From Planctomycetota bacterium (lineage in GTDB: Bacteria > Planctomycetota > UBA1135 > GCA-002686595): DNA of 64,000 nucleotides. Every line of letters starts with the position of its first letter. Position 1 is the stretch's first letter. The DNA is taken from contig JAEUIA010000003.1 of the NCBI GenBank assembly GCA_016795245.1, forward strand, positions 62,001 to 126,000, in the 5' to 3' direction. The notes under the pieces are model-generated. The model was not told the DNA's origin, searched no databases, and saw only the letters and a program-made list of their open reading frames with translations. Both the position numbers and the translations under genes were made by a program. Below, one piece after another: positions 7,052 through 22,558 of the stretch.

Positions 7052-9814
7052 TCAAGGGCCGCCCAGGAAGGTCGCCGCGTCGCCTTGCGCCGCACCGTTC
7101 GCGTCCAGCCACGAGTCGAGCACGAGGCCGTTCACTGGGTCGGCGAGCAAGCGGATGATCGACGCACCGAGCGGTCCCGCCATGTGCGCATCCGTGGCTC
7201 CGTCGCGCAGGCTCGGCCCGACGTTCGGATCCAAGAACGTGTGGTTGTTGGATCCGTTCGCGACGCCTGAAGCCTGAACGATGCGGTCGAGGTCGTAGTA
7301 GACGCGTGCCGGATCGAACACCGTCGACGGCGGCACGTTGTCGGTGCCTTTGCGGTCGGTGTGCGTGTCCAGCGGATTGACGGGTGCTCCGAATTCGTCG
7401 AACAGGAACAAGCCCGTGCCCAGACCGGCAGCCATGTGCGCGAAGAACGGCGAGTTCATCTGATTGCTGGTGTTGCGGCCGAAGTGCTGCTTCAGGAGAT
7501 TGAAGTCGAGCGCTCCGAAATTGCCGGCTGCCAGTGCGTTGCGGAACGTGTCGTACTGCGGTCCGAAGTTGGCGATGCCGCTCGTCGTCATGTGGCAGGC
7601 CACGCAGTAACGCGGGCCTTCCTTCGTCGCCGTCACGCGTCCGCGGATGGAATGCGCCATGATCGCGTTGTGCGACAAGGACGGATAGCCCGAGGTGCCC
7701 GGACCTGTCCCCGACGCATTCTTGTCCGAGAATCCGAAGCGACGTGAGAGCTGATTGTTCTTGTCTTTCCACTGGAAGAACACCTTGGTGTTCGCGCTGA
7801 ACTGCGTGATGCGCCCGCGCGCGTTCACACCCAACTGGAAGAACAAAGGTGATTGGTAGGTGAAGTCAGCAGTGCGCTGCCTGAACACGATGCGCTCGCC
7901 GGTGACGTTGCTGAAGTTGTTGCCGGTGTTGTACTCGCCCGACAAGTGACAGCCCATGCACGTGTTGGTCCACGACGCATGGCACGACACACAATCCATG
8001 CGGTCCGTGTGCGCGAATCCGGCGCCCACTCCCGCCGTCTGTTTGGGTCCGGTTCCGTTCGTGGCCGTGTTGTCGATGCGGCCCATCGCGTAGCTGGCCT
8101 TGGCATTGAAGATCGGTTGCCCGGACTGCGGGTGCAGTTTCCCGGAGTTGACGATCGTGTCCTTCGTCTGCGGCACATAGTGCACCTGCCCCGTCAGGCG
8201 ACTCTTCAGCCAATAGCGCCCGTTCGCGTCACGCGTGACGTGGCGCATCGGGTTGCCCTTCGAATCCACACCGACCTCTGCGACCGTTCCCTCGTAGGTC
8301 GTTCCCGGTTGCACGGGCGCGTAGGTGTCCACGCCTCCGTGACAGTCGCTGCATTGGATCGAGACGTTCTGTTCCATGCGCGAGAGCAACGGTCGATCGG
8401 GATCGTCGATCTTGCCTCCGTGCATGTCGTGACTGCCGTGGCAGTCGATGCAACCCAGGCCGGCGTCGTAGTGCACATCCGGCGGCGTGTCGTCACGTCC
8501 GTCGCCGTCGTAGTCCTCGGTGAGCAGGTACTGATTGCCGTTGCGACCGTTGAACGTGTTGTTGTCGACGACGGCATCGAACAGGCGCGGATCGTTGTGC
8601 GTGCCCTGATTCGAAACCGGATTCGCCGGGTATTGCCGGTTGTTGCGCACGTCGGCGTTCTGGTCGAGGCGAATACCCCAGTACTGCATGACCGTGCGGT
8701 TCGAGCCCTGGTGACATCCGGCGCAAGTGGCGTCGTCCATACCCGGTACGGGCTTGCCGTCCGTGCCGGTCTTTTTGACGCTCGCAATACGGTGCGAACG
8801 CGCGTGCGAACGCTCCGGCGCATCGATGTCGTCAGGGTCGACCGGCTCGATCTTGTTGATGTTGGGATCGCTGCTCCCGCTGCGTCCGGACAACGAGTAC
8901 GGCATGTGGCAGGCCGAGCAACCCGACGAGCGGAAATCTCCCGCGCGGTTGTTCGCGCCGGCGCTGCCGAGGTGGCAATCACCACACGTGAACGAGACCT
9001 GTTCGATGAACAGATTCGCGAGCGGGGAGCCGCTGATCACGCGGTTCTGCGCATCGCGGTCGTCATCCAGACCTGCCGCGAGGTACGCGTTGTTGTTGAA
9101 GATGTTGTTGCCGCCGTTCTGGCCGAAAACGCTGTAGACCGGAACTTCGATCACTCGACCGATGGCTCCGACGACGGCCTGCAGCACATTGAACGCCGGG
9201 TTGGTCCGCGCGCGAAAGCCCATGTCCGCAGCGGTCCCGTTGTGGAGCGCCTGATTCTCGGGCACCAGGCTGTCCGCGCCGATGGCAAAGTTCGCACCGG
9301 ACCAGACGCCGGCTTCGGTCGCCAGCAGACTGTCCGCGACGGAGTTCGCGTGGTCGGTGTGGCATTGCCCGCAACCACGCGCATTCGATGTCACACGCAG
9401 ATCGCCGGGATTGATGAACTGCAGGTAGTCGATCGCGGTGTAGGTGCGGCCGCCGACGCTGTAGTCGGGGAACTTGTCCATGCCGGCGAGTGTCAGACGG
9501 TTGAAGTACGCCTTTGCGTTCGTCGTCTGGAACGCATCGTCACCGATCTGCGGCGGCGGCGGAACGTGGCTCGCGGCCATGTCGTCGCCGGCCGGATTAC
9601 CGCCGTGACACACGGTGCAGCGGATGTTGTCCGCTCCCGCGAACGGGTGCGGGTTCTCGATGCCGGGCCCCGAGTAGTCATTGCTCAAGGTGCCGTTGTG
9701 GCACTGCATGCACGACTCGACAGCACTCGATTGCAGCGATCCAGTCTCGCCGCTGCAGCTCGCGAACAACGCCGCAGCCAACACCATGATCCAAACGGGT
9801 GTGCGATGAAGCAT
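7052..9814 (-). CDS. Undecaheme (11 CxxCH) c-type cytochrome lipoprotein
   Basis: The protein has 920 aa. The ATG at 9814 is chosen over upstream starts because it gives a lipoprotein signal, MLHRTPVWIMVLAAALFASC. I count 11 CxxCH sites: CMQCH, CTVCH, CGQCH, CGDCH, CSACH, CAGCH, CIDCH, CSDCH, CVSCH, CMGCH and CVACH. Long non-heme insertions separate them, unlike compact tetraheme repeats. This architecture fits a large lipid-anchored, probably surface-exposed electron-transfer cytochrome acting as a terminal reductase/oxidase module. It is the last gene of the minus-strand electron-transfer cluster, 163 bases after the 7-heme cytochrome. No CxxCK active-site heme of nitrite reductases is present, so the terminal substrate is unknown. 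Confidence 0.9.
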   Translation of the reverse strand: MLHRTPVWIMVLAAALFASCSGETGSLQSSAVESCMQCHNGTLSNDYSGPGIENPHPFAGADNIRCTVCHGGNPAGDDMAASHVPPPPQIGDDAFQTTNAKAYFNRLTLAGMDKFPDYSVGGRTYTAIDYLQFINPGDLRVTSNARGCGQCHTDHANSVADSLLATEAGVWSGANFAIGADSLVPENQALHNGTAADMGFRARTNPAFNVLQAVVGAIGRVIEVPVYSVFGQNGGNNIFNNNAYLAAGLDDDRDAQNRVISGSPLANLFIEQVSFTCGDCHLGSAGANNRAGDFRSSGCSACHMPYSLSGRSGSSDPNINKIEPVDPDDIDAPERSHARSHRIASVKKTGTDGKPVPGMDDATCAGCHQGSNRTVMQYWGIRLDQNADVRNNRQYPANPVSNQGTHNDPRLFDAVVDNNTFNGRNGNQYLLTEDYDGDGRDDTPPDVHYDAGLGCIDCHGSHDMHGGKIDDPDRPLLSRMEQNVSIQCSDCHGGVDTYAPVQPGTTYEGTVAEVGVDSKGNPMRHVTRDANGRYWLKSRLTGQVHYVPQTKDTIVNSGKLHPQSGQPIFNAKASYAMGRIDNTATNGTGPKQTAGVGAGFAHTDRMDCVSCHASWTNTCMGCHLSGEYNTGNNFSNVTGERIVFRQRTADFTYQSPLFFQLGVNARGRITQFSANTKVFFQWKDKNNQLSRRFGFSDKNASGTGPGTSGYPSLSHNAIMAHSIRGRVTATKEGPRYCVACHMTTSGIANFGPQYDTFRNALAAGNFGALDFNLLKQHFGRNTSNQMNSPFFAHMAAGLGTGLFLFDEFGAPVNPLDTHTDRKGTDNVPPSTVFDPARVYYDLDRIVQASGVANGSNNHTFLDPNVGPSLRDGATDAHMAGPLGASIIRLLADPVNGLVLDSWLDANGAAQGDAATFLGGP

Positions 9815-9977
9815 CCCCAACCTTCCTCGGGTCACGACCCGCGCGCAGATGCGCGAAGCGCCACCCAGGCGGAAACAACCGCCGACTCTCGCTCTCTCTC
9901 CCTCATCGAAGGCCATCCGTTCACCGGCGACCTTCGTCCCCGTACAGGCATCGAACAGATCAGATGACAATCTTGAT

Positions 9978-10634
9978 TCAATTGCCGATCTCCGCCTGGT
10001 TCCACGTGCGCGGCAAGTGACACCTGTCGCAGCGATCGACCCAGCCCAGGCCGACGTGGTTCGGGTTGTTGGCGCGCGCGAGATCGCTGGCGTGGCAGGA
10101 AACACATTCCGTGTCGGTCGGCGTGAAGCGGCCTACTTCCGCGCCGGCGTGGCAACGGTGGCACGCTGTTGCGGCGTGAACGCCGATCAGAGGGAAGCGC
10201 GTGCGGTCGTGCAACGCATACTGGCCGAACGGACGCCAGGTTTGTTGCGTGTGACAGGAAGTGCAATCCGAACCGAGCTGACCCGTGTGCACGTCTTCAT
10301 GACAGCCCGCGCAGCCGCGCGCCTGGAAGATGCCGACCGGACCACGATCATTGTGGCAGCGCAAGCAGGTCGCACGCGCATGAGCGCCTTCGAGCTTCAC
10401 GCCCGTCTCACCCTCGTGGTCGAACTCGAACTCGGTCGAAACGCGCCTCCAGTCGTCGCCGACGTGGCACAGCGCGCAGTCGCCCGGAAACGTATCGTGC
10501 GGCAAGACCGGGCCAAAGCCTGACCACCACAGCTTCTGCGCAGCGCTGTCGGAGCCTTGCACGACGCACGCGACGGCCAGGAACATCAGCGCGCACACTG
10601 CTGACCAGGTGCGCAAGGATCGTAGATGTTTCAT
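9978..10634 (-). CDS. Heptaheme c-type cytochrome
   Basis: The protein has 218 aa with a signal peptide (MKHLRSLRTWSAVCALMFLAVAC, possible lipobox). Seven CxxCH sites are visible: CALCH, CLRCH, CAGCH, CTSCH, CHRCH, CVSCH and CDRCH, spaced as in cytochrome c3/c7-like multiheme modules. The ATG at 10634 overlaps the stop of the beta-barrel gene (TGATG) and is preceded by AGAGGAG, showing translational coupling. The expected role is to relay electrons in the periplasm or inside the outer-membrane barrel, as MtrA/PioA-type cytochromes do. It is smaller than MtrA (10 hemes), so the comparison is by context, not close identity. Confidence 0.88.
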   Translation of the reverse strand: MKHLRSLRTWSAVCALMFLAVACVVQGSDSAAQKLWWSGFGPVLPHDTFPGDCALCHVGDDWRRVSTEFEFDHEGETGVKLEGAHARATCLRCHNDRGPVGIFQARGCAGCHEDVHTGQLGSDCTSCHTQQTWRPFGQYALHDRTRFPLIGVHAATACHRCHAGAEVGRFTPTDTECVSCHASDLARANNPNHVGLGWVDRCDRCHLPRTWNQAEIGN

Positions 10635-12322
10635 CAGAAGCTCCTCTGCAGAAAGAGGCCCACGACCACGGCTGTTTCCGAATCGAACAACAGCACGTCG
10701 CTGTAGGTCGAAAAGCTCCAGCCGGAGTCTCCATGCGTTTCGAAAGATGCCCGCACACGGTGCTGCGGGATGTCGTCGTTGTCGGCCGAGAACCCGTCGA
10801 TTCGATTGAGCGTGAAGTCGTAGCCGAGCCGCCACAGACCGTGTGACGTCGCCGCACCCAAGGCCGTGCGCCAGCCCAACGTGCTGCTGAACTGCCCGTT
10901 CGTCCCGAACCCAGCGGCCTCGACGCGCAGGTCGTCGAACATGAAGTCCTTCACCTCGAACCCGGCTTCAGCGTCGCCGCCGTTGTCGTCCTCGTCCTGC
11001 CACACGCCCGCTTGACCGAACAGTTCGAAGTAACGTCCGACAGCCTGGCGTCCACTGATCGACGCGCGGTCGAAGTGATCGTTCGCCAGCTGCGCCGCTG
11101 TGACCGGCAGGAACTCGTCGCGATCGAGCACGGGAAACGTCCGGTGTGTGTACGTCGCACGCAGCGAACTGCCGCTTTCGAAACGCCTGCCGGTCGTGAC
11201 GTAGGCCTGCGTGACTTCGGGTCCGCTGCTCTTGTCCACGTCTCCGCCGGTGTAGTAATCGATCCACGCCGTCGCGCTGAAAGTCCACGCGGCCGGCGGC
11301 AGGTACACCACTTTGGCCACGAACAAATCGCGATCAGCCGCGAGGTCGTGGAAGGTCTTCTGATACCCGCCTTCGATCGAGAGCATCTCGCTCTCGTCGA
11401 CGACGTAGCGGTAGTAGCCTGCGAATTGCAGGTCGTGACCGCTGTCCTGGCCCGCGTTGGGCTCCGGCATGAATCCAGCGCTCACACCGAAGGTATCGCC
11501 GTTCGACAGCCGGCGGCCCCACTCGACTCCGTCCAGCACGCCGAATTCGGGCATCCCGTACTGCAGGAAGCGACCGAGTTCGTAGCGATCCGGATCGAAG
11601 CGATTGCCGCCGAACGAGTAGCTCGCACGGTCCAGACGGAAGCGTTGTCGGTTCTCGTTGTCGTCATCCGGAACACTCGTACGGCGCGCGTTGAACTCGC
11701 CGTCGAGGTGCAAGCTCCCGCCCTTTCGAAACAGGTTCTCGAAGCGCAAGTCGGTGCCTACACGCGCGAATGTGTCGCTGCGATTGCCTTCGGTGTTCGA
11801 GATGTGGTCGAGGAACGTGTACACGCGTCCGGATGCAACCGGCTCGCGCTCGCTCGGGCGGAACGGTCGGATGCGCGCCAGCAGCGGCTGGTCGGTCGTC
11901 CAGTCGTCGTCGACGCGCTCCCACGGCGGATGGTCAGGCGCAGCCGGTGCAGTTTCCGTCGTCTGGGGTTGCAATGTCTCTCCGGACGACGGGAGTGTCG
12001 GCGCCGGTGCAGCGATGCGCGACTTGGGTACGCGTGCCTGACCACGCGTGCCCGGTGCAGGCACGAACGACGCATCGTCGAGTTCTACAGCCGCTTGCCG
12101 TTCTTCGACACGCTTGACCGTGCCTTCGAAGCGCGCGCCCTCGCGCGTCGTGAAAACCACCCGATCATTCACCGTCAATCCGTCGGCCACACCTCGGTCG
12201 ACGACAGCGGTGCGCGGCATCGTCGATGTCACGCGCATGTTGACGAACACCATCTCCTCGATCTGGGCGTACGCCGGTGCCACAAGCGCAGCCAGAGCGC
12301 ACCATCGCAAACTGAAACTCAT
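10634..12322 (-). CDS. Outer-membrane beta-barrel, MtrB/PioB-like porin of cytochrome conduit
   Basis: The protein has 562 aa. The ATG at 12322 is supported by AGGAGGAG and a signal peptide (MSFSLRWCALAALVAPAYAQ). Residues about 25-150 are soluble, including a beta domain (VVDRGVADGLTVNDRVVF) and a Pro-rich linker. The remaining roughly 400 residues alternate polar and aromatic/hydrophobic residues with acidic turns and end in Phe (GLFLQRSF), the classic outer-membrane protein C-terminus. It is sandwiched between multiheme cytochromes with overlapping start/stop codons. In known porin-cytochrome complexes such a barrel encloses a multiheme cytochrome. The assignment is by topology and context; I cannot run a profile search. 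Confidence 0.75.
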   Translation of the reverse strand: MSFSLRWCALAALVAPAYAQIEEMVFVNMRVTSTMPRTAVVDRGVADGLTVNDRVVFTTREGARFEGTVKRVEERQAAVELDDASFVPAPGTRGQARVPKSRIAAPAPTLPSSGETLQPQTTETAPAAPDHPPWERVDDDWTTDQPLLARIRPFRPSEREPVASGRVYTFLDHISNTEGNRSDTFARVGTDLRFENLFRKGGSLHLDGEFNARRTSVPDDDNENRQRFRLDRASYSFGGNRFDPDRYELGRFLQYGMPEFGVLDGVEWGRRLSNGDTFGVSAGFMPEPNAGQDSGHDLQFAGYYRYVVDESEMLSIEGGYQKTFHDLAADRDLFVAKVVYLPPAAWTFSATAWIDYYTGGDVDKSSGPEVTQAYVTTGRRFESGSSLRATYTHRTFPVLDRDEFLPVTAAQLANDHFDRASISGRQAVGRYFELFGQAGVWQDEDDNGGDAEAGFEVKDFMFDDLRVEAAGFGTNGQFSSTLGWRTALGAATSHGLWRLGYDFTLNRIDGFSADNDDIPQHRVRASFETHGDSGWSFSTYSDVLLFDSETAVVVGLFLQRSF

Positions 12323-14391
12323 CGACTCCTCCTCTTGCGCCGCATCAACACGTCCTCTTGCACGCCGTGGCAGTCGACGCACTCGGTTCCGAGCGGGCGG
12401 AAACGGACGACCTCTTCGCCAGAGGCCGAGACCCATGGTTTGTGGCAGGCCGAACAGGCAATTTCGGCGTGCTGTTCGCGCAGGGGGAAACGCGAGTCGC
12501 GATCGTGGTTGAAAGCGATGAAGTTCTCGAGTGCGTCTGAGTGGCACTGCGCACAGCTGTTCGCGCCGCGCGCCTCGAACTGGCCTGCATGCGGATCGAA
12601 GTGACAGTCGGAGCACTTGTTGCCGAGCGCAGCTTGCCAGGTCCGGCCCACGCTGTCGGGCGCGTGCAACGGTTCGTGACAGGACGAGCACGAAACGCGA
12701 CCGTGCGCTCCGACGAGTTGAAAGCCGGTCCAGCGCCCATGATCGAAGCCGCGTGGGAAGGCCCTGAACGAACTTTCGTCGTGGCAGCGCGCACAGTCCG
12801 TGCGGCCTTCGACTTCACGCGGCGACGAGGGTGTGTCGAAGCGCCCTTGATGCGGGTCGGTGTGGCACGTGATGCAGCCTGTGAAGGCACCGAAATGCTC
12901 CTCGACCCGGCCGAACGTCCGACCTGATTCGTCCGGCGCCGCAGCGCTGGGGTGACAGCTCGCGCATTCGCTCTGCGCGTGCGCACCCAGGATCGCGAAA
13001 TCCGTGAAGCGCAAGTGGTCGAAACCGGGCGCGGGGATCTCCGCGAACGTCGTCGTCGTGTGGCAGGCGGCGCACGATCCGTGGTCCGGTAGCTCCTCGG
13101 GCGTCAGGGAGTCCTCGAAAAATCCGCCGTGCGCATCGCGGTGACAGGCAGCACACTCCGCCGCCGTCCCTTGGAACACGCGCGGCGCATCTTCAGCGGG
13201 CTTCGTGTGACAGTCGTTGCATTGCGTCGTCGCATGCTTGCCGTCGAGCACGAGCTTCGACAAGGCGTGCTGTTCGGCCGTGAACGTGTTCGGCACGAAA
13301 TGCGCGCGCGCATGACAGGCCGTGCATTCTTGGGCGGCATAAGGTCCTGTGGCGAATTGGCCGCCGTGCGGATCTGCGTGACAGGCGCTGCAAGCGTCGG
13401 GTGAACGACCTGGATAGCGCTCGGAGAACTGCTGCAGTCGCGGGTCGTGACAGTCCGCGCACAGCGGCGCGTCGTGTGGCGCGTCCAGGCGATAGCCCGT
13501 GAACGCATGCTGCTCCGCGCTGATCTTCAGGCTCGGCTCGCGGAACAGCGTGTGTTCGGCGGAATGGCATACGACGCAACTGGCGCCCGATGGTTTCGCG
13601 ACCGCCTGCGCCACTTGGATCACAAACGGATCCGAATGCGGTGAAGCGTGACAAGCGCTGCACTCACGTGCGGCGAGGCGCGCACCCGTGTCGCCCATCG
13701 ATTCGAGTGAGTGCGCGTCGGACTCTGCGTGACACTGCCTGCAACCAACGTCGCCGTGCCCACCGATCAACGGCAGAAAGCGTTCGTGACCTTGCGAGTG
13801 CAGTTGATCCCACTGTGTCTGGCCGTGGCAGGAGGCGCACGACACCTGCATGCGTCCTTCGTGCGGGTCTTCGTGGCACGAACCGCAAGCTTGCGACAGT
13901 CCCTGGAACCGTTTGGCGCCCTCGGGCAGGAGTGATGCTTCGGCGTGCTCATGACAGTCGACGCAACCGATCTCGGCGTGACGGCCGTTCATCTCGAAAC
14001 CGATCGCGTTGTGATCGAATTCGGCCTTGCTCTTCGCGCCGATGCCCCGGAACGCGCGGTCGTTCACCAAGGCGAAATTCGCGCCGTGGTGATCGCCGTG
14101 ACAGGCGGCGCAATTGTCAGCCAGAGCCTTGTTCGGGATGCCGTGCACACCGCGGCGCGACTCGATCTGCTCGCCGATCACAGCGTGGCAATCCAAGCAC
14201 GCGCTGGTCATGTCCGAGAACCACCCGCCGTGGCACTGCGAACAGCTGTTGCCGCCGTCGATCTCGTCGAGTTGCGCATGCACGCCGGCGATGGGGCCAG
14301 GAGAAGTGCGCCGCGTATCGACGATGGCGACCATGCTCACCGCTAGCAGCGAGCACACCGTGATCCAGAGCTTGGGGCTCCGCCAGCTCAA
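12319..14391 (-). CDS. 23-heme c-type cytochrome, membrane-anchored
   Basis: I count 23 CxxCH motifs over 690 residues, from CSQCH near residue 50 to CVDCH near the C-terminus, about one per 28 residues, many followed by DPH (e.g. CGSCHEDPH, CSACHADPH). A TTG start at 14391 is chosen: GGAGG lies 6 bases upstream, the codon overlaps the preceding stop (TTGA), and it gives an uncleaved-looking N-terminal helix (LWITVCSLLAVSMVAIV). The only upstream alternative would overlap the previous gene by about 110 bases. The density of hemes suggests a long molecular wire through the periplasm receiving electrons from the inner membrane. The C-terminus is very basic (RRKRRSR). Confidence 0.9.
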   Translation of the reverse strand: MSWRSPKLWITVCSLLAVSMVAIVDTRRTSPGPIAGVHAQLDEIDGGNSCSQCHGGWFSDMTSACLDCHAVIGEQIESRRGVHGIPNKALADNCAACHGDHHGANFALVNDRAFRGIGAKSKAEFDHNAIGFEMNGRHAEIGCVDCHEHAEASLLPEGAKRFQGLSQACGSCHEDPHEGRMQVSCASCHGQTQWDQLHSQGHERFLPLIGGHGDVGCRQCHAESDAHSLESMGDTGARLAARECSACHASPHSDPFVIQVAQAVAKPSGASCVVCHSAEHTLFREPSLKISAEQHAFTGYRLDAPHDAPLCADCHDPRLQQFSERYPGRSPDACSACHADPHGGQFATGPYAAQECTACHARAHFVPNTFTAEQHALSKLVLDGKHATTQCNDCHTKPAEDAPRVFQGTAAECAACHRDAHGGFFEDSLTPEELPDHGSCAACHTTTTFAEIPAPGFDHLRFTDFAILGAHAQSECASCHPSAAAPDESGRTFGRVEEHFGAFTGCITCHTDPHQGRFDTPSSPREVEGRTDCARCHDESSFRAFPRGFDHGRWTGFQLVGAHGRVSCSSCHEPLHAPDSVGRTWQAALGNKCSDCHFDPHAGQFEARGANSCAQCHSDALENFIAFNHDRDSRFPLREQHAEIACSACHKPWVSASGEEVVRFRPLGTECVDCHGVQEDVLMRRKRRSR

Positions 14392-16622
14392 TGCGCGCCT
14401 CCCGTGAAATCGGGCGATCCGTAGATCAGCGCGTAGCAGATGTGCACGACCAGCAAGACCACCATCAGCGCAGCGACCCAACGGTGGACGTAACGCCACC
14501 CGTTGAGGAGCGCGCGCAGATCTTCGAAGTGAGCCGCCATCAGCGCCGTGTGGTGTGCATGGCGGGCGATGGTCAATGCCTCACGCAGCTTGACTTCAGG
14601 TACGTGCTGGCGCTGCCCTTCGCTCTCCAGCGAGTGCAGCAAGCGTCGCAAGTCACGTTGTCCGCCCAGCAACGCCAGCGCACGCCCGACGAGCGAGCTC
14701 GACCATTGACGCGCGGCGATACTGGCGTTGATCTCGGCGCGGGCGTGCTCCACGAATGCGCGTTGGCTTTCGTCCCACGATTCGGACAAGCGCGAGAGTC
14801 GCAGCTTGACCTCTTCCAACTCCAACTCACGGCCGTTGGCCGCGCGCGGAACGTAGGCGTAGAAGTAGCGCCCGATCGCGCCGGTCACCAAGAGCACGAC
14901 CAGCGCCCACAGCGCATGTCCGCCGACGGTGTCGCGCGGCGCCATTCCACCGTGCAACGTTGCCAAGAGCAGCGCGAGCACGCCCGTCGCGACGTGGCTC
15001 GTCATCCACGCCTTCAGCGTTCCGAAACTGAAGCCGCGTTTCTGCGCGCGTCGCAACAGGTAGAGCAGATTGACGACGATCAGCGCGGTCGCTGCGACGC
15101 CGAACCACAAGCCCAGGCCCGAGCTCGGGCGCAGATGTGAGAAGCCCTCGTGCACCGGTCGTTCTTCGAGCGGCAACGTGTAGTAGTCGGCGTTCCACAG
15201 GGCGAACCCCAAGGCCAGGACGGCGAGGCACAAGCCGATGCCCAAGGCGCGCGTCAGACCGGAGCCTTGTTCCGTGACGCTCGAAATCGGTGCGCGCAGG
15301 GCCGGGTCGAATGACACGCCCGAGCGCTCGAGGACGTCGAGCGGCGCCAATCCGCCGGCCATCACGAAGACTTCGTCGTTCGGAATCTCCAGCACGCCGC
15401 GCGACGGGCCGTCCGTGAGTTCGACGTGAACCGCATGCGCGTCGATCGCGGTCACGGTGCTGCGCCACAAGACCCGCAGGCGGCCGGCGGCAAGGCTCTC
15501 GTTCAAGCGTTCCTCCGTCCGTTGACGGATGCGGAAGAACGACTCGTTGCGGTAGCTGATCGTGACCTGGTTGCCGGGTTGTTCCGCCAGAGCGACTGCG
15601 GCTTCGACGGCACTGTCCCCACCGCCGACGACCAGGATGCGGCGATTCTGGTAGGAGCTCGCGTCGAGCAGGCTGTAGGCGACCTTCGGCAAGTCCTCGC
15701 CGGGGACTCCTAGTTTGCGCGGTGTGCCGCGCCGGCCTAGCGCGAGGCACACGTTGCGAGCGCGGTACGAATGCGCTCCTGTCTGGACGACGAACGTACC
15801 GTCGGGCTCGCGCGTCAGACCCTTGAACTCTTCGCCGCCGTGTATCGGCAGATGCTCGTCGCGCGCGATCTTCTGCCACAAGTCGACGAGTTCTTCCTTC
15901 GTGTACGACTTGCGGTCCAGCCGTCCGTGCAGAGGCAGATCGACCGGCTGCGTAAGGACGAGTTTGCGTCGCGGATATTTGGCGACGGTTCCGCCCGGCC
16001 CGGCCTCTTGATCGAGCGTCACGAACGAGAGTCCGTGCTTCTTGGCTTCCAACGAGCACGCGAGGCCGGCCGGCCCGGCGCCGACCACGCACAGGTCGAG
16101 TGCTTCCTCGCGGGCTGCCGTATCGACGCCCCTGCGCCGAGCGACTTCATCCGCGACGGCGGTTCCCTGATCGATCGCGGTCTTGATCAGCGCGTGCGCG
16201 GTGACCTCACCGGCCAGGAACAAACCGGGTGTGCCGACGGCTTCGAGTTCGACGGAAATCGCCGGGATGTCACGCCGCTTTTCGGTGTCCGTCAGCGTGA
16301 CCGTGATGGCATCGACCGGGCACACGGTTTCGCACGCGGATACGCCGGTGCAACGCGCACCGTTGACGACCATTGCCTGGCCGTGCACGAGTTCGAGCAC
16401 GCCCTGCTCAGGACAGGCCTTGACGCACGCGCCGCAACCCAGGCAGCGAGTCAAGTCGATGACCGGATGCTGGAGTTGCGCCTTGGCGCTGCCGCTGCGG
16501 ACTGCGCGCTCGCGCTCGTTCACACGCCGCTGCATGCGCGTGAGCTCGATACGACGCGCCAGGGCCGCGAGGAACGCGAGTCCCAGCGCGAGCACGAGCG
16601 CGACGAGCAGCGTCCAACTCAA
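14388..16622 (-). CDS. Membrane ferredoxin-FAD/NAD(P) oxidoreductase fusion
   Basis: The protein has 744 aa. An N-terminal helix (residues 3-22) is followed by a two-cluster ferredoxin domain near residues 50-110. Next comes a thioredoxin-reductase-like flavoprotein with an FAD dinucleotide motif (VVGAGPAGLA, near 180) and an NAD(P)-type motif (VVGGGDSAVEAA, near 335). The C-terminal part has several transmembrane segments with histidines (HVATGVLALLLATLHGG; HRWVAALMVVLLVVHICY) that could bind b-heme. The first cluster motif is complete (CLGCGACVKACP); the second, CTGVSACETVCP, has Val in place of the second Cys. The TTG start at 16622 has GGAGG 7 bases upstream. By context it is probably the inner-membrane entry point feeding the 23-heme cytochrome; electron donor and direction are unknown. 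Confidence 0.8.
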   Translation of the reverse strand: MSWTLLVALVLALGLAFLAALARRIELTRMQRRVNERERAVRSGSAKAQLQHPVIDLTRCLGCGACVKACPEQGVLELVHGQAMVVNGARCTGVSACETVCPVDAITVTLTDTEKRRDIPAISVELEAVGTPGLFLAGEVTAHALIKTAIDQGTAVADEVARRRGVDTAAREEALDLCVVGAGPAGLACSLEAKKHGLSFVTLDQEAGPGGTVAKYPRRKLVLTQPVDLPLHGRLDRKSYTKEELVDLWQKIARDEHLPIHGGEEFKGLTREPDGTFVVQTGAHSYRARNVCLALGRRGTPRKLGVPGEDLPKVAYSLLDASSYQNRRILVVGGGDSAVEAAVALAEQPGNQVTISYRNESFFRIRQRTEERLNESLAAGRLRVLWRSTVTAIDAHAVHVELTDGPSRGVLEIPNDEVFVMAGGLAPLDVLERSGVSFDPALRAPISSVTEQGSGLTRALGIGLCLAVLALGFALWNADYYTLPLEERPVHEGFSHLRPSSGLGLWFGVAATALIVVNLLYLLRRAQKRGFSFGTLKAWMTSHVATGVLALLLATLHGGMAPRDTVGGHALWALVVLLVTGAIGRYFYAYVPRAANGRELELEEVKLRLSRLSESWDESQRAFVEHARAEINASIAARQWSSSLVGRALALLGGQRDLRRLLHSLESEGQRQHVPEVKLREALTIARHAHHTALMAAHFEDLRALLNGWRYVHRWVAALMVVLLVVHICYALIYGSPDFTGGAH

Positions 16623-16644
16623 TGCGATCCTCCCAGCCCTGCGT

Positions 16645-16669: not shown

Positions 16670-16753
16670 GCTGCGCTCATGTCGAGCGCTGTTCATGGTG
16701 TCCCACGGGAACACGACGCCCGCAGATGAGCGTCGCTCCGCGTGGTCGTGCGG

Positions 16754-17608
16754 TCACTGCGGCGCTTGATCCGTGCCCGAGTCCTCCGGCGTGGCCGGAG
16801 GGAACGGGGTTTCGGACGGAGCCGTCGACGGGCGCGGCTTGAGTGTGGAAGAGCGCTGCTTCGCGAACTTCGTCTTCGTCTGGCGCTCCGTCGTCTGAGA
16901 CGTCGTCGCCGTGTTGTTCGGCGTGGCGTTGTCGAGCGTCACCGTCTCGACCTGACCGTACAGCGCCGTGGCTTCGACATACGTGCGCGCTGCGTTCGAG
17001 CAGGCTTCGACGCGATTGTCGAGCTCCTTCGCGCGCTCATGCAGTTCGCGCACTTCCGGATGGATCGACGCGATGGCCGAGGCGTTCAAGTCGCTGGCGA
17101 GGAAGAGCGCCTGATCCTTGAGATCGGCATTGAAGGCTTCGAGCGTGACGAGGACGTTTTGCGCGCTGTTCAGCACTCCCTGGTAGCGATTGCGAGTGTC
17201 ATCGAGGCGCGCCTGACTGCGCTGGCGCATCTTGGTGTTCCCGAACGCCTCGAGATCTTGAGTCCAACGACCGAACACGGTCGCTGCCGATTCCGTCATC
17301 GGACGGACCGACTTGCGTAGCTCGGTCGCCTGGCGCACAGAGTCTTCGATCGACTGCTTGAAAGTGGCGAATTGCTTCGTCGCATCGCCGCTGAAGTTGG
17401 GGGATACCAACGCCGTGAGTTCGGACAGCGAGGCGCGCGCCTTCTCGCGCGCAACAGTCGCATCGACCTGCACGCGTTCGACGCGCGTCAACAGGTTGTC
17501 CACCTCTTGGACGCTCTGGGCCTGCCGCGAAGTGCTCGCGCACGAGAAGAGCCCGAATACGGTGGGAAGAAGGATCGCGACCTGGGTCACGAGAAGACGA
17601 CGAATCAC
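16754..17608 (-). CDS. DUF2959-like lipoprotein, coiled-coil
   Basis: The protein has 284 aa. The GTG at 17608 is selected because GGAGG lies 8 bases upstream and the product then begins with a lipoprotein signal (IRRLLVTQVAILLPTVFGLFSC). The mature part is a long helical coiled coil. The block VFGRWTQDLEAFGNTKMR ... RNRYQGVL ... DQALFLASDLNASAIASI matches what I recall of the DUF2959 family, of unknown function. The C-terminal 60 residues are low-complexity, rich in Thr, Pro and Lys. It lies between ccsA and the oxidoreductase in the same orientation, so it may serve the same envelope system structurally. Confidence 0.75.
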   Translation of the reverse strand: MIRRLLVTQVAILLPTVFGLFSCASTSRQAQSVQEVDNLLTRVERVQVDATVAREKARASLSELTALVSPNFSGDATKQFATFKQSIEDSVRQATELRKSVRPMTESAATVFGRWTQDLEAFGNTKMRQRSQARLDDTRNRYQGVLNSAQNVLVTLEAFNADLKDQALFLASDLNASAIASIHPEVRELHERAKELDNRVEACSNAARTYVEATALYGQVETVTLDNATPNNTATTSQTTERQTKTKFAKQRSSTLKPRPSTAPSETPFPPATPEDSGTDQAPQ

Positions 17609-17731
17609 GCTGAATACCTCCGCTTGGATGCCGGGGAGAAGACCGCCTCGCGCGCCCTCTCCATGTATCAATCGTGTTCGACCGTTCGGCCGCCCCCTCT
17701 TGAGAGCGGCGTGGAGTTCAGGCAGTAGCCA

Positions 17732-19552
17732 TCACGCGGCCGCGCGCATTTTTTTCTCACACTGCTGCGCGAGTTCGACCGTCGCAGCCGGAACTTTCTT
17801 CGCAGCCGCGCGCTCCCGCAGCCACGCGATCCCGCCGAGTGCGACGATGCTCCATTGCACGCCGTAGTAGGTCCACAGGCTGGTGTGAATGCCGCTGGTG
17901 AATCCGTAGCTGTGCAATCCGACGCCCAGCAGGTTCACGCCCCACCACGAGAACGCGACGATCGTGCCGCCAAAAGCCGCAGCTGCGCACGTGCCGTGAT
18001 CACGCAAGAAGCCGCCGCGGCGCGCGTGCAGGATCACGAGCTGACTGATCACGATGAGCAGCGCACCGTTCTCCTTGGGGTCCCAACCCCAGAAACGTCC
18101 CCAACTCTCGTTGGCCCAGATGCCGCCGAGGATGGTCCCGACAGTCGAGAAGATGACTGCGAAGCACAAGACGCCGTAGACGGTGCGCGCGAGAGAGCGA
18201 CGAGCGGCCGGATCGTTGCGCTTCCACCCGAACAACTTGCCGATCAAGTAGAAGCTGGCGAGTCCTGCCGCCAACATGCCGGCTGAGTAACCGATGGTGA
18301 TCGCAGTGACGTGCGTCGCCAGCCAGAAATTCGTGTCGAGCACTGCGACGAGGCTCGGCATCGTGTCTTGCTTGTCCAGCGTCTCGTAGCCGTTGGCGAC
18401 GAACAGGCCGATCATGCCCAAGGCTGCTGCGGTCCCGATGGCCACGCGCGAGCGTTGAACCCATTCGATGAACACGGCGATGAGCACGCCGGTGGCGGTT
18501 ACGAACAGCACCGTCTCGTACAGCGTCGAGACCGGTGGGCGGCCGCGGATGATGCAACGCAGTGTGATGGCGATTGCGAGCAACACCGTCGCGATCGACG
18601 TCAGGGTGACATTCGAGAGCCACAGGAAGCGGCTCTTCGGCCGGAGCCACGACACCGCGACTGTGAGGAACGCAGCGATGAAGGCCGCGAGGCTCCATTG
18701 AATCGGATCGAAGGCGTAGTACGCACGTTCGAGTTGGATGTGCTCGTACTCGCCGCGCGCCGTCGCGCGTGCCACGAGCCGGTCGCGAAGCGATGCGAGA
18801 GCCGCGGCAAAAGCACCCGGGTCGGTCCGCTTCTCCACCAAAGTGATGAAGCCCGAGATGACGGCCGAGTCGGCTTCCGCGAGACCCTGCTTGGGGCCCA
18901 CACGCGCGATCAGATCACCAGGGGTGGCCCAGTCCGTGACACTCGGATCCGTGTTCGCCGGCGGAATCAGTGCGAGCGCACCGCCGTCCTTGGTGTCTCC
19001 ACCGCGCGCAAAGTCCAAGAACCGGGCGAGGCGCATGAACGAAAACACGTTGCTCGCCAGGTCGACGATCTGTTGCTGTTGCGAACTGCGCAGCTTGGGC
19101 TCGATGCTTTCGTACTCATGAGCCAGTGCGAACAAGCGCGGCATGCCCGGCTGCAGTTCGGCGTATGTCCAGCGATCACGCTTGCGCTTGCCGTCCGTCG
19201 AGAGGCCGATCGCGACGATCGCATCCGAGTCGGTCACGAGGAACGTCGGCGTATCGATTGCGGCTTCGGGAAAGAACACGACATCGAGCAACCATGCCAC
19301 GGGATCGAGCTTCTCGCCCGAAGCCGAGACGACACTGCGCTTGCCGCTCACGCGCAGCAGCGTGAACCCGGCGTAAGTCGAGAGCGGTTTGATACGGCCG
19401 CCGTCCTGGATCGGAAGGCTGCCGAACGATTCGAGGATCTCGGGTGTCCACGGTTGCTCGCGATGCTCGTGCTGCAACGGGGAGGCGTGAATCGTCGCCG
19501 TTGCGATCAGAGCGATCGCGACGGCACATAGACGTCGGAGGATCGTGCTCAT
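17732..19552 (-). CDS. ccsA: Cytochrome c assembly protein CcsA/ResC
   Basis: The protein has 606 aa. The ATG at 19552 overlaps the resB stop (ATGA). The N-terminal ~290 residues form an exported domain after a signal-like helix. Then come about eight transmembrane helices carrying the heme-handling WWD signature: WANESWGRFWGWDPKENGAL, near residue 490. Conserved histidines (THVTAITIGYSAG; LLGVGLHSYGF) fit heme ligands. CcsA with ResB/CcsB exports heme and joins it to CxxCH cysteines in system II cytochrome c maturation. The large N-terminal domain is typical of the extended ResC of some planctomycetes/Bacteroidetes. Proximity to 41 heme sites makes the cluster self-sufficient for maturation. 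Confidence 0.92.
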   Translation of the reverse strand: MSTILRRLCAVAIALIATATIHASPLQHEHREQPWTPEILESFGSLPIQDGGRIKPLSTYAGFTLLRVSGKRSVVSASGEKLDPVAWLLDVVFFPEAAIDTPTFLVTDSDAIVAIGLSTDGKRKRDRWTYAELQPGMPRLFALAHEYESIEPKLRSSQQQQIVDLASNVFSFMRLARFLDFARGGDTKDGGALALIPPANTDPSVTDWATPGDLIARVGPKQGLAEADSAVISGFITLVEKRTDPGAFAAALASLRDRLVARATARGEYEHIQLERAYYAFDPIQWSLAAFIAAFLTVAVSWLRPKSRFLWLSNVTLTSIATVLLAIAITLRCIIRGRPPVSTLYETVLFVTATGVLIAVFIEWVQRSRVAIGTAAALGMIGLFVANGYETLDKQDTMPSLVAVLDTNFWLATHVTAITIGYSAGMLAAGLASFYLIGKLFGWKRNDPAARRSLARTVYGVLCFAVIFSTVGTILGGIWANESWGRFWGWDPKENGALLIVISQLVILHARRGGFLRDHGTCAAAAFGGTIVAFSWWGVNLLGVGLHSYGFTSGIHTSLWTYYGVQWSIVALGGIAWLRERAAAKKVPAATVELAQQCEKKMRAAA

Positions 19553-20712
19553 GCTGCGCGCATTTCCAGCTTCACGTAACGCGTGAGCTTGCGAACGAAG
19601 TGGAAGAGCAGGCCTGCGGCGATGACCAGGCACGCGGCCAACGGCCATTGGTCGGCCGGATTGCGTACGACGGCGAAAGTCGAGAACAGACGATCACCCG
19701 GCCGCGCGTTCGACGGCCCCCACGAGGCCTGGTACAGCACCAGCCCGCCGTCGCGCAGCGGCTCGTTCATCGAGATCTTGACGTCCCGGCTGCTGGAGCC
19801 GCTCGCGACTTGCACCTCGCTCTCGAACGAGCGCGGCATGTTGGTTCCGGGGTGCTCGGTCTTGTTGAAGCGAGCGAGTTGAATGGCGAACGGCATGGCG
19901 TAGCGCTCCTTGCGCAGCGACACGGCCCAGGCTTTGCCGGCTGCGACGAAAGTGAAGGGTTGCGCTTCCGCGCCCCACAGCAACGCGCGCCGCCGCGTAC
20001 CAGTCTGTTCGTCGAAGATGGATACACAGGCTCCTGCGATGTTGGCTTCGGCACGCGCGTCGACCTCACGCGGCACGAGTTTGACTCCGTCGATCACGAC
20101 GGGTCCGTGTGCGCTCGTGGACTGAGCACGTTCCGGCCTGCAATTCTTCGACACGCTTTCGATCTGGACCGTGAATGGAATGTCCGCAGCGTTCAGGCTG
20201 ACAGGAATTCGTTGCGCTTCTTCGATGCGCTCGTGCGGGACGAGGTGCTCGCGCACACGGCCCCCGTCGAGCTGCTCGATCACTGCGAGTTCCCAACGGA
20301 AGTAGCTCTCGAAGTGATCCGCGCTTTGACCCTCGTACAACGTCACGTGCCCGTCGCTGGACCAGTTGTGCTTCACCAGTGCAGACATGAGCAGCATCGC
20401 AATACCGACGTGCGTGACGATGACGCCCGCCGTCGCCCAGCTCTTCCGGATACGGACGAATCCACCCACGGCGAGATTCACGGCGAGCAGGCACATCACC
20501 AGGTTCGCGCCCGGCAACGGGATCGAGAACCTACCGAAGTCATGAAACAGAATGAACGACTCGAAGTACTTGCGCTGCACTTCGAACAGGCCGGTGCGCG
20601 TCTGCTCCAACGTGCCGAGCCAGGTCAAGAGGCCCAGGAGTACGAGCAGGACACAGCACGTGGCCAGCGACGAAGCCACCGTCAGCACACCGCGCGCGAT
20701 CTTGCGTACCAC
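19549..20712 (-). CDS. resB: Cytochrome c biogenesis protein ResB/CcsB
   Basis: The protein has 387 aa with N-terminal transmembrane helices (SSLATCCVLLVLLGLLTWLGTLEQ, with the ResB-typical WLGTLEQT motif), a second pair, a large periplasmic domain and a C-terminal helix (WPLAACLVIAAGLLFHFVRKL). Its GTG start at 20712 lies one base after the stop of the preceding lipoprotein gene, and its stop overlaps ccsA. ResB partners CcsA in the system II heme lyase complex. The protein is somewhat shorter than the Bacillus ResB. Confidence 0.9.
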   Translation of the reverse strand: MVRKIARGVLTVASSLATCCVLLVLLGLLTWLGTLEQTRTGLFEVQRKYFESFILFHDFGRFSIPLPGANLVMCLLAVNLAVGGFVRIRKSWATAGVIVTHVGIAMLLMSALVKHNWSSDGHVTLYEGQSADHFESYFRWELAVIEQLDGGRVREHLVPHERIEEAQRIPVSLNAADIPFTVQIESVSKNCRPERAQSTSAHGPVVIDGVKLVPREVDARAEANIAGACVSIFDEQTGTRRRALLWGAEAQPFTFVAAGKAWAVSLRKERYAMPFAIQLARFNKTEHPGTNMPRSFESEVQVASGSSSRDVKISMNEPLRDGGLVLYQASWGPSNARPGDRLFSTFAVVRNPADQWPLAACLVIAAGLLFHFVRKLTRYVKLEMRAA

Positions 20713-20713
20713 G

Positions 20714-21802
20714 CTACTGCGCCTCCTGCAGCGACGCCGCGAACGTCAGCAGGGCCGACCGCTGTGCACGCACGAGTTCACCGGGGCCGGTCATCTTGAT
20801 GAACACCGACCGCGTGGAATTCATGCACGTGACGCCAATCATCGATCCGGAAGCGCCGTCGATGTCGACGATCTTCGCCGGTCGTCCGCACAAAGTAATC
20901 GAGTCCAGTTGATCGAGGTCCGTTTGCGCGATGGGCGCGAGGCCCAGTTGACCGCGCCAGCGATTGACGTTCGCGAGTTCTCCGCCGGCTTCGCCGCTGA
21001 GCACCGTCACGTAGCATTCGACCGCTTCACCGTCGCCGGCCCAGAAGCTCAGGGCACGCGATGCGCGGTCCGGTGCACGACGCCAGGTAGCCGGTGTCAC
21101 GAATTCGAATCCGCTCGCGGCGGATTCCGATGTGTGCGTCGGTTGTGCGCCGGATCCGAACGACGCGGCGAACGCGAGAAAGGCCTCGCGCTCGGCAGCG
21201 ACAGTCGCGCTGGGGCCGGTCATCTTCACGAAAAGAGAGCCGGCAGGCTCGATCAGCAGCAAACCTGTGAGCGCCCAATCATCACGCGCTTCCGCGCCGC
21301 TCATGCCCTGCCACTTGCCTTGCCACTCGACCAGCGTGGCTTGACTGCCGAACAACGTCGCGCGCGGCAGCGCTTCGATCGCGGCCGCCGACAACGGGCC
21401 CAGCGAGAGTTGCCCACGCCAACGGTTGATGTTCGCCGTCAGTCCGCCGGCGTCACCTGCGAGCATCGTGACGTAGCATTCAGCGCGTTCGTCGCCGGCC
21501 GGCTTGAAGTTCGCGACGCGCATCGTCGCCGGCGCGAGCTCGGTCCAGCCCTTCGGGGTCGTCCACTTGAACTGTTGGGCCGGCGCGTCGTCCACAGGCG
21601 GAAGCGCATTCGAAGACCCGCGGAGCCCGAACCGTTCCGCGTGTGTCGCACGCGAACCGAAATCGATGCGCGAGTTCTCGACGACGCGCGACTGCTCGAT
21701 TCGATGCGACGTCCCTGCTGCCGGTGTCGGAGCGCAACCCGAAACGATCACACATGCGCCGACGGCGCCCCATGCGGCGCAACGCCACTTCAACTCTCTC
21801 AC
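20714..21802 (-). CDS. Lipoprotein with tandemly duplicated domain
   Basis: The protein has 362 aa. The GTG at 21802 has GAGGAGG about 5 bases upstream and gives a lipobox signal ending VSGC; the ATG at 21835 would add 11 residues but lacks a ribosome site. Two homologous halves of about 150 residues follow, each with F-x-TP-x-x-W, a (E)CYVT-L-G-GG segment, N-x-NRWRGQL-L-P and a C-terminal FVKMTGP / FIKMTGP with FAAS. The repeat is clearly an internal duplication. The domain is of unknown function. The gene precedes resB by one base, hence it is coupled to cytochrome maturation. Confidence 0.8.
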   Translation of the reverse strand: MRELKWRCAAWGAVGACVIVSGCAPTPAAGTSHRIEQSRVVENSRIDFGSRATHAERFGLRGSSNALPPVDDAPAQQFKWTTPKGWTELAPATMRVANFKPAGDERAECYVTMLAGDAGGLTANINRWRGQLSLGPLSAAAIEALPRATLFGSQATLVEWQGKWQGMSGAEARDDWALTGLLLIEPAGSLFVKMTGPSATVAAEREAFLAFAASFGSGAQPTHTSESAASGFEFVTPATWRRAPDRASRALSFWAGDGEAVECYVTVLSGEAGGELANVNRWRGQLGLAPIAQTDLDQLDSITLCGRPAKIVDIDGASGSMIGVTCMNSTRSVFIKMTGPGELVRAQRSALLTFAASLQEAQ

Positions 21803-21958
21803 TCGATCCTCCTCGTCCGGCGCATCGATGCGCATTCGGACTTCGGGGGATCGACCGCTGTGCGCCGATCCCTTGAGGCGTTCCCGGCGTCGGCGCGGAA
21901 AAAAGTTCCTCCCGCGACGGGAACGAGCCCGGCGCGGGAGGAAGCGTGCCTCAGCAAA

Positions 21959-22558
21959 TCACTTGGCGCGCGTGTAGGTGATCTCCATCGCCAGGTACTC
22001 CTTGCCGTCGGGTCCCGTGGCGTAGGACGACATCACCCAGTTGTCCTTGTCGACGATCTTCTCGGTCGTACGGTTCTTCTTGGACACGCCGGCCATGACG
22101 TCGGGCATCTCGCCGGTGTAGTTGAAAGTCTTGGTCTTGGCGTCGTACGTGCCTTCCATGGTCATGATGGCGGTGCCCATGTTGTCCATCCATGTGCCGA
22201 CGTACTTCTTCTTCATGTTGTCGTAGCCGAGGTGGCCCAGACCCACGAAGGGCATGCCCTGGAATTCGCCTTGCGTGTGATCTTCGAGGAAGCGGCCGTC
22301 CATGATCCACTTCACTTCAGATGTCGCGGGCGACTCCTCGGCCGGAGCTCCGGGGGCCATGATCATCTTGACTTTCATGTTCCACTTGCCGGCCTTGTCG
22401 GCCAGTTGCTTGTGGCCCTCGCCCGGCGTGGCGAACTCCATCCACTTCTTCATCATCTCCGCTTCATCCGCGCCTTGCGTCATCTTGGTGAGCGCTTGAG
22501 CCGCGAGGCCACCGGCTGCAACAAGCGCAACGGCGGCGAGTGCAAATCGAATCTTCAT
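21959..22558 (-). CDS. DUF1579 family secreted protein
   Basis: The protein has 199 aa with a signal peptide (MKIRFALAAVALVAAGGLAAQA). The body has the DUF1579 hallmarks: GKWNMKVKM, WIMDGRFLEDHTQG, GLGHLGYDNMKKKYVGTW and FNYTGEMPD. These form a lipocalin-like beta-barrel of unknown role, common in planctomycete envelopes. GGAG lies close upstream of the ATG. It is 156 bases upstream of the lipoprotein/resB unit and may be transcribed separately. Confidence 0.85.
   Translation of the reverse strand: MKIRFALAAVALVAAGGLAAQALTKMTQGADEAEMMKKWMEFATPGEGHKQLADKAGKWNMKVKMIMAPGAPAEESPATSEVKWIMDGRFLEDHTQGEFQGMPFVGLGHLGYDNMKKKYVGTWMDNMGTAIMTMEGTYDAKTKTFNYTGEMPDVMAGVSKKNRTTEKIVDKDNWVMSSYATGPDGKEYLAMEITYTRAK

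Follow-up and report, generated by a model that had tools for sequence, protein, structure and literature searches.

The quinone pool feeds the well-studied extracellular electron conduits (Mtr, Omc). The little-studied PCC3 conduits comprise a porin, a periplasmic cytochrome of approximately 21 to 27 hemes with few residues per heme, a second multiheme cytochrome (MHC) and a membrane protein of approximately 300 aa with five transmembrane (TM) segments, the IMP, whose signature in both PCC3 and PCC4 is two WX3HX13H motifs plus SGXXG (He et al. 2017, PMC5566968). Hosts of PCC3 include Sideroxydans, Leptothrix and other Proteobacteria (PMC5566968), and its function is at present a proposal (PMC12442390). 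In the 2026 Sterkfontein ghost-rock survey, group 1 has a large decaheme cytochrome beside a porin of ∼20 strands, in many cases accompanied by a ferredoxin-NADP reductase gene; group 3 has >20-heme or undecaheme cytochromes, and two Planctomycetota genomes are listed among the PCC carriers (PMC13264449).

The window analyzed here is a 64,000-nucleotide stretch of a Planctomycetota genome (contig JAEUIA010000003.1, positions 62,001 to 126,000). An earlier note on it had described one minus-strand cluster with a FeS/FAD membrane protein, a 23-heme cytochrome, an outer membrane barrel, 7-heme and 11-heme cytochromes, DUF2959 and ResB/CcsA, and all of these genes were found on that strand at matching coordinates. 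The stop/start overlaps said to tie the core together are real (TTGA between g6 and g7, with g7 starting at TTG; ATGA between g7 and g8; TGATG between g8 and g9), and a further ATGA joins g3 and g4. The total of 41 c-type hemes also held, with 23 CxxCH motifs in g7, 7 in g9 and 11 in g10, far above the means expected by chance from residue shuffles of the same proteins (0.27, 0.07 and 0.03, respectively). The range first given, 7052-22558, narrows to 7052-21835 for the cluster proper (core, 7052-16622). It ends at 21835 because none of the 28 family loci tested has a homolog of the DUF1579 protein g1 (21959..22558, minus strand; PF07617, E = 2e-45), and g1 was rejected as a member. Judged by described features (motifs, heme counts and gene content), the cluster is most likely a variant of the PCC3 conduits of Proteobacteria, one common to other Planctomycetota, Calditrichota, KSB1 and a cultured member of the Bacteroidota.

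A flavoprotein fused to a probable cytochrome b

Pfam and NCBIfam domains agree with the first description of g6 (14388..16622, minus strand) as a FeS/FAD membrane oxidoreductase: an N-terminal TM segment is followed by an [Fe-S] domain (C60/63/66/70 and C91/97/101) and a YpdA/TrxR-like FAD/NAD(P) domain (residues 176-440). That description needs an addition, as the C-terminal part (441-744), with five hydrophobic segments, forms a five-TM domain that is probably a di-heme cytochrome b, on the basis of motifs and of weak Pfam and PDB sequence matches. The motif W-x3-H-x13-H occurs twice (W539-H543-H557 and W709-H713-H727, all residues invariant), and the pair is found in 70 of 71 full-length homologs. 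The match to Pfam Ferric_reduct was below the cut-off. The AlphaFold2 (AF2) model of the domain is helical throughout (pLDDT 89), and a fold search of the PDB with it returned long-helix look-alikes and no convincing match.

The ∼300 residues of this domain align with stand-alone IMPs of homologous loci (hhalign 99.8%, E = 4.8e-28), which are 281 to 317 aa long, carry exact matches to the W-x3-H-x13-H motif, twice, plus SGxxG, and in Calditrichota, KSB1 and Emticicia adjoin cytochromes of 20 to 23 hemes, further heme-rich cytochromes and an FeS-FAD protein encoded by its own gene. The large components had been called unrelated-looking, a view that no longer fits, given that g6 bears the PCC3/PCC4 IMP signature (PMC5566968) and that g7 and g10 have homologs elsewhere. 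In g6 the five TM segments and two motifs of the PCC3 IMP are fused to a FeS-FAD/NAD(P) module, and TGxxG at 580-584 (T580, G581, G584) replaces SGxxG. The fused FeS-FAD/IMP proteins of Planctomycetota form one clade in the tree (support 0.957), which points to a single joining of FeS-FAD to IMP that was retained in >70 homologs. The arrangement is also reminiscent of NOX/FRE enzymes, which likewise join a FAD/NAD(P) domain to a cytochrome b that has two hemes and HX13H pairs; however, the FAD domain of g6 is YpdA/TrxR-like rather than FNR-like and precedes the membrane part.

Predicted periplasmic and outer membrane components

With Cytochrome_C7/c3 domains and 23 hemes, g7 (12319..14391, minus strand; 690 aa) has 30 aa per heme, close to the PCC3 periplasmic cytochrome (∼21 hemes, 22 to 39 aa per heme), and the count of 23 recurs in 24 of 27 same-type loci. 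Homologs in Bacteroidota, Calditrichota and KSB1 comprise a 23-heme cytochrome and 20-heme cytochromes. g7 begins with a signal anchor and is presumed to be a wire spanning the periplasm. Neither g7 nor g10 had a useful match in sequence searches of the PDB.

The outer membrane barrel proposed for g8 (10634..12322, minus strand), the counterpart of the PCC3 porin, was borne out by prediction: the AF2 model, built from 51 sequences, has 22 consecutive strands (pLDDT 86.9, pTM 0.76), preceded by a signal peptide and a small N-terminal beta domain (residues 24-99) placed in the periplasm. Ushers and porins match it in a Foldseek search of the PDB, and tblastn against plasmids gave no match. MtrB has 26 strands; g8 has no Pfam family, MtrB is absent from its best 50 structure matches, and a relationship to MtrB/PioB was rejected on these two results. 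The cluster would resemble MtrCAB, PioAB and MtoAB in how it works (cytochrome, outer membrane barrel, surface cytochrome) but not in family membership, as g8 has no MtrB/PioB match in Pfam or among the best 50 structures and g7 only partially resembles the DmsE/MtrA family (63 bits, below the cut-off of 192).

The best conserved part of the outer membrane complex is the 7-heme lipoprotein g9 (9978..10634, minus strand), at 53 to 70% identity even across variants and with a lipobox-like Cys in 52 of 69 homologs. At 31 aa per heme it shares with g7 the low ratio (∼30) of PCC3 wires. The 11-heme lipoprotein g10 (7052..9814, minus strand; 920 aa; lipobox ASC) has 84 aa per heme and is presumed to be the surface terminal cytochrome; all 18 near-full-length homologs have 11 hemes, and a 1,322-aa decaheme protein of Sphingobium is homologous to it (24% over 732 aa, E = 1e-28). 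Identity of g10 with ExtM of the selenite/tellurite operon (NCBIfam NF040943) was rejected, the score being far under the cut-off (74.6 bits against 800; E = 5e-21; best stretch, residues 444-497). In PCC3 the extracellular MHC has 10 to 85 hemes and few residues per heme; the window has g9 plus the putative surface cytochrome g10, and a sister variant has a single 12- to 46-heme protein. By description, an 11-heme cytochrome within a porin-cytochrome system also recalls Uet of Tenderiales; Uet has in addition tri- and tetraheme cytochromes (PMC10734462), which are absent from the present cluster. The N-terminal sequences are as expected for a g7 anchored in the periplasm and for lipoproteins g9 and g10, and no result put a component in a compartment at odds with the conduit that the earlier note proposed.

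Accessory genes and related loci

Besides the 7-heme and 11-heme lipoproteins, DUF2959 and ResB/CcsA set the cluster apart from PCC3. The coiled-coil lipoprotein g5 (16754..17671, minus strand; PF11172, E = 1.4e-24; start uncertain, GTG at 17608 likely) belongs to DUF2959, which occurs in 18 of 27 loci of the 7-heme/11-heme variant and 1 of 34 loci of the other (Fisher P = 5e-8, kinship ignored), and this distribution marks it as an accessory of the former. The maturation genes were correctly recognized: ResB (g3, 19549..20712; PF05140, E = 1.3e-18) and CcsA, the cytochrome c synthetase subunit (g4, 17732..19552; PF01578, E = 2.7e-24), both on the minus strand, score over their Pfam cut-offs, and ResB/CcsA also neighbors this set of genes in another phylum. 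CcsA has the WWD motif (WGRFWGWDPKE; TIGR03144, E = 5e-38, below cut-off), so that g3 and g4 together have the hallmarks of cytochrome c maturation system II. The genome carries another ResB/CcsA pair (C22) away from this cluster. The tandem-domain lipoprotein g2 (20714..21835, minus strand) has no Pfam match; with homologs at ResB/CcsA-bearing family loci (L017, L019, L020, L022, L026, L027 and L030), it travels with ResB/CcsA.

Heme counts and gene order recur in dozens of genomes. The order g6-g7-g8-g9 is kept in most adequately long related Planctomycetota loci, where the neighbors are conduit parts and no other pathway is indicated. Two variants occur: a 7-heme core joined by g10, as in the window and nearly constant at 23/7/11 hemes, or a core extended to 12 to 46 hemes without g10. 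One strain (L030/L062) has g6 without adjacent cytochromes and g10 is missing at five loci that have a 7-heme g9 followed by >5 kb of downstream sequence; parts are therefore dispensable. In Calditrichota and KSB1, separate FeS-FAD and IMP genes adjoin those for a 20-heme cytochrome and another multiheme cytochrome, and the Calditrichota loci also have a porin. Several Planctomycetota likewise have FeS-FAD and IMP as separate genes, and the position of the FeS-FAD gene varies among split loci. Plasmid pEMTOL02 of Emticicia oligotrophica carries ResB-CcsA, IMP, FeS-FAD, a 23-heme cytochrome (28% identical to g7 over 656 aa, E = 2e-67), a 40-heme cytochrome and a presumed porin. The system had been suggested as a new type in Planctomycetota; it also occurs in Calditrichota, KSB1 and a cultured member of the Bacteroidota, and similar clusters had already been surveyed, though the part of that survey drawn on here describes them as gene groups, without IMP fusion, variants or cross-phylum homology (PMC13264449).

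Proposed electron path and alternatives

We read the cluster, with a probability of roughly 0.7, as a PCC3-like trans-envelope conduit entered through a NAD(P)H/ferredoxin-linked, NOX-like cytochrome b. An envelope-spanning conduit is the best reading because order and heme counts are conserved, a 22-strand barrel is predicted, and ResB/CcsA adjoins the set in another phylum. What the earlier note proposed thus survives as a conduit-type cluster with maturation genes, and not as one unrelated to known conduits or confined to Planctomycetota. The cytoplasmic FAD/NAD(P) and Fe-S domains of g6 would feed its five-helix cytochrome b, where the four invariant His may bind a stacked pair of b hemes that spans the inner membrane, so that electrons would pass between cytoplasmic NAD(P)H/ferredoxin and the periplasm in the style of NOX or ferric reductases. 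The membrane-anchored g7 would take them over the periplasm, g8 would hold g9, probably within its barrel, at the outer membrane, and g10 would meet the external partner at the surface. ResB/CcsA would act as a second, cluster-associated heme-attachment set, with DUF2959 and g2 as accessory lipoproteins. Export to an extracellular acceptor seems the likelier direction. More tentatively, we suggest as one joint claim that the wire is quinone independent, with the fused g6 passing NAD(P)H/ferredoxin electrons via FAD, Fe-S and two b hemes straight into the 23-heme wire and out via the barrel, and that such wires are widespread in oxygen-reductase-bearing Planctomycetota and have homologs in at least four phyla.

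The same conduit might run inward, with Fe(II), Mn(II), reduced humics or another cell as the donor and an oxidase chain or, via the FAD domain, NAD(P)+ as the recipient. A role in Fe(II) oxidation has been proposed for PCC3, which is present in iron oxidizers, and this genome carries two heme-copper oxidase subunit I genes; nonetheless, inward flow is doubtful, as direct transfer from Fe(II) to NAD(P)+ would be uphill without quinone or proton-motive coupling, g6 shows no separate quinone-linked subunit, and the carriers include the cultured marine strains Poly30, Pla86 and Pla163. These three are not known as lithotrophs. A PCC3-like conduit whose b hemes are fed by quinol, with the FeS-FAD domain only branching or regulating, would agree with the IMP-quinone interaction proposed by He et al. 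(PMC5566968) and with the separate, variably placed FeS-FAD genes of split loci. We regard it as unlikely: at the split loci examined, the IMP comes with FeS-FAD (loci collected with a FeS-FAD query, by which IMPs lacking FeS-FAD would have been missed), and it was fused once and kept in >70 homologs.

The large size of g10 per heme (84 aa) and its partial ExtM match (E = 5e-21, 75 bits against 800) would suit an enzyme at the surface that reduces a soluble substrate (e.g., a selenite/tellurite oxyanion) with electrons supplied by the other components. Such a role is improbable for the cluster as a whole, since the sister variant and several same-variant loci lack g10, the g9 of the sister variant is extended to 12 to 46 hemes, as for a wire, and the best ExtM-matching stretch is short (444-497). 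Chance proximity of cytochrome genes, a flavoprotein gene unconnected with them and housekeeping genes for heme attachment would agree with the finding that neither ResB/CcsA nor DUF2959 is adjacent at every locus, but is highly improbable in view of the cross-phylum order, the overlapping genes and the ResB-CcsA beside the Emticicia set.

If the PCC3-like conduit reading is correct, the NAD(P)H/FeS-fused entry would couple electron exchange outside the cell directly to the redox pool of the cytoplasm, and exchange with minerals or humics would extend to Planctomycetota that also carry oxygen reductases. From the g6 fusion, a candidate inner partner also emerges for the PCC3 membrane protein, which has long lacked an explanation. 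The occurrence of the cluster in the complete genomes of Planctomycetes Poly30, Pla86 and Pla163 and on a plasmid of Emticicia oligotrophica DSM 17448 makes the system experimentally accessible. When plasmids were searched for a Proteobacterial PCC3, the matches were instead this Emticicia cluster, a Sphingobium locus with a flavoprotein, an IMP and two decaheme cytochromes, and, in Alteromonas, Glaciecola and Methylophaga, short sets of an IMP and a 7-heme cytochrome. A [NiFe] hydrogenase lies beside the sets of Alteromonas and Glaciecola.

Gene content and domain structure of the cluster

The minus-strand genes listed in an earlier note on this DNA were all present where stated, comprising in transcription order g1 (DUF1579; 21959-22558), g2 (tandem-domain lipoprotein; 20714-21835), g3 (ResB; 19549-20712), g4 (CcsA; 17732-19552), g5 (DUF2959; 16754-17671), g6 (FeS/FAD membrane protein; 14388-16622), g7 (23-heme cytochrome; 12319-14391), g8 (barrel; 10634-12322), g9 (7-heme lipoprotein; 9978-10634) and g10 (11-heme lipoprotein; 7052-9814). 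The 41 hemes claimed there correspond to 41 CxxCH motifs, far above chance (means in shuffled g7, g9 and g10 proteins of 0.27, 0.07 and 0.03, respectively), and the stop/start overlaps were likewise confirmed (TTGA, g6/g7; ATGA, g7/g8; TGATG, g8/g9; ATGA, g3/g4). A gap of ~160 bases separates g9 from g10. A plus-strand gene for a small lipoprotein (6493-7044) is convergent with the end of g10, at a spacing of only seven bases.

The description of g6 as an FeS/FAD protein covers only part of its product. After an N-terminal helix come an Fe-S domain, with one full CxxCxxCxxxCP cluster and a second cluster one cysteine short, and then a YpdA/thioredoxin-reductase-like FAD/NAD(P) domain from which the TrxR CxxC is absent. 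At residues 91-104 (window 16311-16352) the missing cysteine of the second cluster is replaced by valine, and most g6 homologs carry histidine at this position (CVGHxAC), which suggests a 3Fe-4S or His-ligated cluster. Five hydrophobic segments lie within residues 441-744, with two invariant W-x3-H-x13-H motifs (W539-H543-H557 and W709-H713-H727) and TGxxG at residues 580-584. These features are those described for the inner-membrane proteins (IMPs) of the porin-cytochrome conduit (PCC) types PCC3 and PCC4, which have five helices, SGXXG on helix 4 and WX3HX13H on helices 3 and 5, and which He et al. inferred to bind two b hemes (PMC5566968). AlphaFold2 gave a confident all-helical model of the cytochrome b domain (pLDDT 89), without a convincing match to solved structures; at the second histidine pair, sequence profiles had weak matches to cytochrome b6 and Ferric_reduct (E = 0.003 for each).

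Predicted electron path and likeness to PCC3

In the g8 model (pLDDT 86.9), 22 strands form a barrel, preceded by a small periplasmic domain at the N-terminus; structure matches of the model were ushers and porins, and MtrB was not among the top 50. Together with the uncleaved-looking N-terminal anchor of g7 and the lipobox cysteines of g9 and g10, the barrel model fits a predicted order of products from inner membrane through periplasm and outer membrane to the surface. We infer from the higher conservation of g9 and its plug-like size that it fills the g8 barrel. The most likely path would run from NAD(P)H or ferredoxin to the FAD and Fe-S of g6, through two b hemes spanning the inner membrane to the 23-heme wire of g7, and then via the 7-heme g9 at the barrel to the 11-heme surface cytochrome g10. 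Export is the favored direction, since for an NAD(P)H-linked cytochrome b that lacks a quinone-linked, energy-coupled subunit the downhill course of electrons is outward; electron uptake would be the less likely direction. The organism probably also respires oxygen, as its genome encodes two heme-copper oxidases.

By architecture the cluster works like PCC3, three defining features of which are present, whereas a fourth, a single heme-rich extracellular cytochrome, is replaced by g9 and g10. Its likeness to the Sideroxydans system is one of architecture, and we regard the cluster as a new PCC3-like variant rather than a proven PCC3 member.

Conservation, two variants and maturation genes

Full-length g6 homologs occurred in most of the 61 same-family genomes searched. 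In a phylum-wide sample of 196 genomes, 24 gave a strong match, either as a fused protein or as FeS-FAD alone. The order g6-g7-g8-g9 was repeated in nearly all fetched loci with a long enough contig. Two variants were found among these loci. In that of the window, g7 has 23 hemes and g9 seven, g10 is found in 19/27 loci (11 hemes in 18/18 near-complete copies) and DUF2959 lies nearby in 18/27. In the other, g7 mostly has 26 or 23 hemes and g9 retains its 7-heme start but is extended to 12-46 hemes; g10 was absent from all 34 loci, so that g10 and the extended g9 seem to substitute for each other at the outer end. As five 7-heme loci with >5 kb downstream also lack g10, it is not essential. The window's own genome carries a second, paralogous cluster (L016:8309-16077; G000:C117), with g6 (54%), a 26-heme cytochrome, a barrel (33%) and a 17-heme g9, and without g10. 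Two g9 relatives, L066:12904 (1168 aa) and L110:13196 (1077 aa), have 46 and 43 heme motifs per protein, and both loci contain a CcsA homolog. In strain CPC51 (L030/L062), g6 has g2-ResB-CcsA nearby and no adjoining multiheme cytochromes.

ResB and CcsA of the window scored above Pfam cut-offs. They are an additional set, since a second ResB/CcsA pair (on C22) and one CcsA/CcmC-like gene occur elsewhere in the genome. CcsA was near 6/27 loci of the window's variant versus 3/34 of the other; ResB/CcsA was near 7/20 long family loci and also adjoins the Emticicia cluster described below. The earlier description of these as the cluster's own maturation genes is thus reasonable, but the association is not universal.

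Split forms in other phyla and published conduits

A single scan of the g6 profile against 84,980 species genomes matched Planctomycetota (including the complete genomes Poly30, Pla86 and Pla163), Phycisphaerales, Calditrichota and KSB1. In Calditrichota and KSB1, g6 is split into an FeS-FAD protein (432-462 aa) and a membrane protein (290-317 aa) with both W-x3-H-x13-H motifs and SGxxG, the latter matching the g6 C-terminus by profile comparison (99.8% probability, E = 4.8e-28). The split genes adjoin a cytochrome of 20 hemes as well as other multiheme cytochromes; Calditrichota loci also have a porin, and the KSB1 contig stops inside the second cytochrome. The cultured bacteroidete Emticicia oligotrophica carries a complete split-type cluster on plasmid pEMTOL02 (L116:4899-16697), comprising a ResB-CcsA fusion, a 281-aa membrane protein, an FeS-FAD protein, a 23-heme cytochrome (28% identity to g7 over 656 aa, E = 2e-67), a 40-heme cytochrome similar at its start to g9, and a 538-aa presumed porin in the porin position. 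Planctomycetota too have split clusters, one of which (L132) has g10. The simplest account is that the fusion arose once, since the FeS-FAD module tree parts all fused from all split proteins (support 0.957).

Novelty is limited by published surveys: PCC3 and PCC4 are already published (PMC5566968), as are a novel porin-MHC of Verrucomicrobia (PMC5615132), PCCs in subsea tunnel MAGs of Planctomycetota and KSB1 (PMC10732223), from which several loci compared here (named OFTM) appear to derive, and PCCs with neighboring ferredoxin-NADP reductases and >20-heme cytochromes in a 2026 ghost-rock survey (PMC13264449). We found no description of the g6 fusion, its single origin or the two variants, nor of the cross-phylum link including maturation genes.

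Further relatives were observed on plasmids. A Sphingobium plasmid (L120:5272-15508) encodes a flavoprotein and an IMP in which both histidine motifs are present, together with a 10-heme protein and a decaheme homolog of g10 (1322 aa) bearing LVIVD repeats. Plasmids of Alteromonas (L117:6043-14657) and Glaciecola (L118:6040-14667) carry a short cytochrome b relative, a 7-heme cytochrome and a 2Fe-2S/ferredoxin protein adjoining an [NiFe] hydrogenase; similar, hydrogenase-free trios occur on Methylophaga, Qipengyuania and Bradyrhizobium plasmids (L119, L121 and L122).
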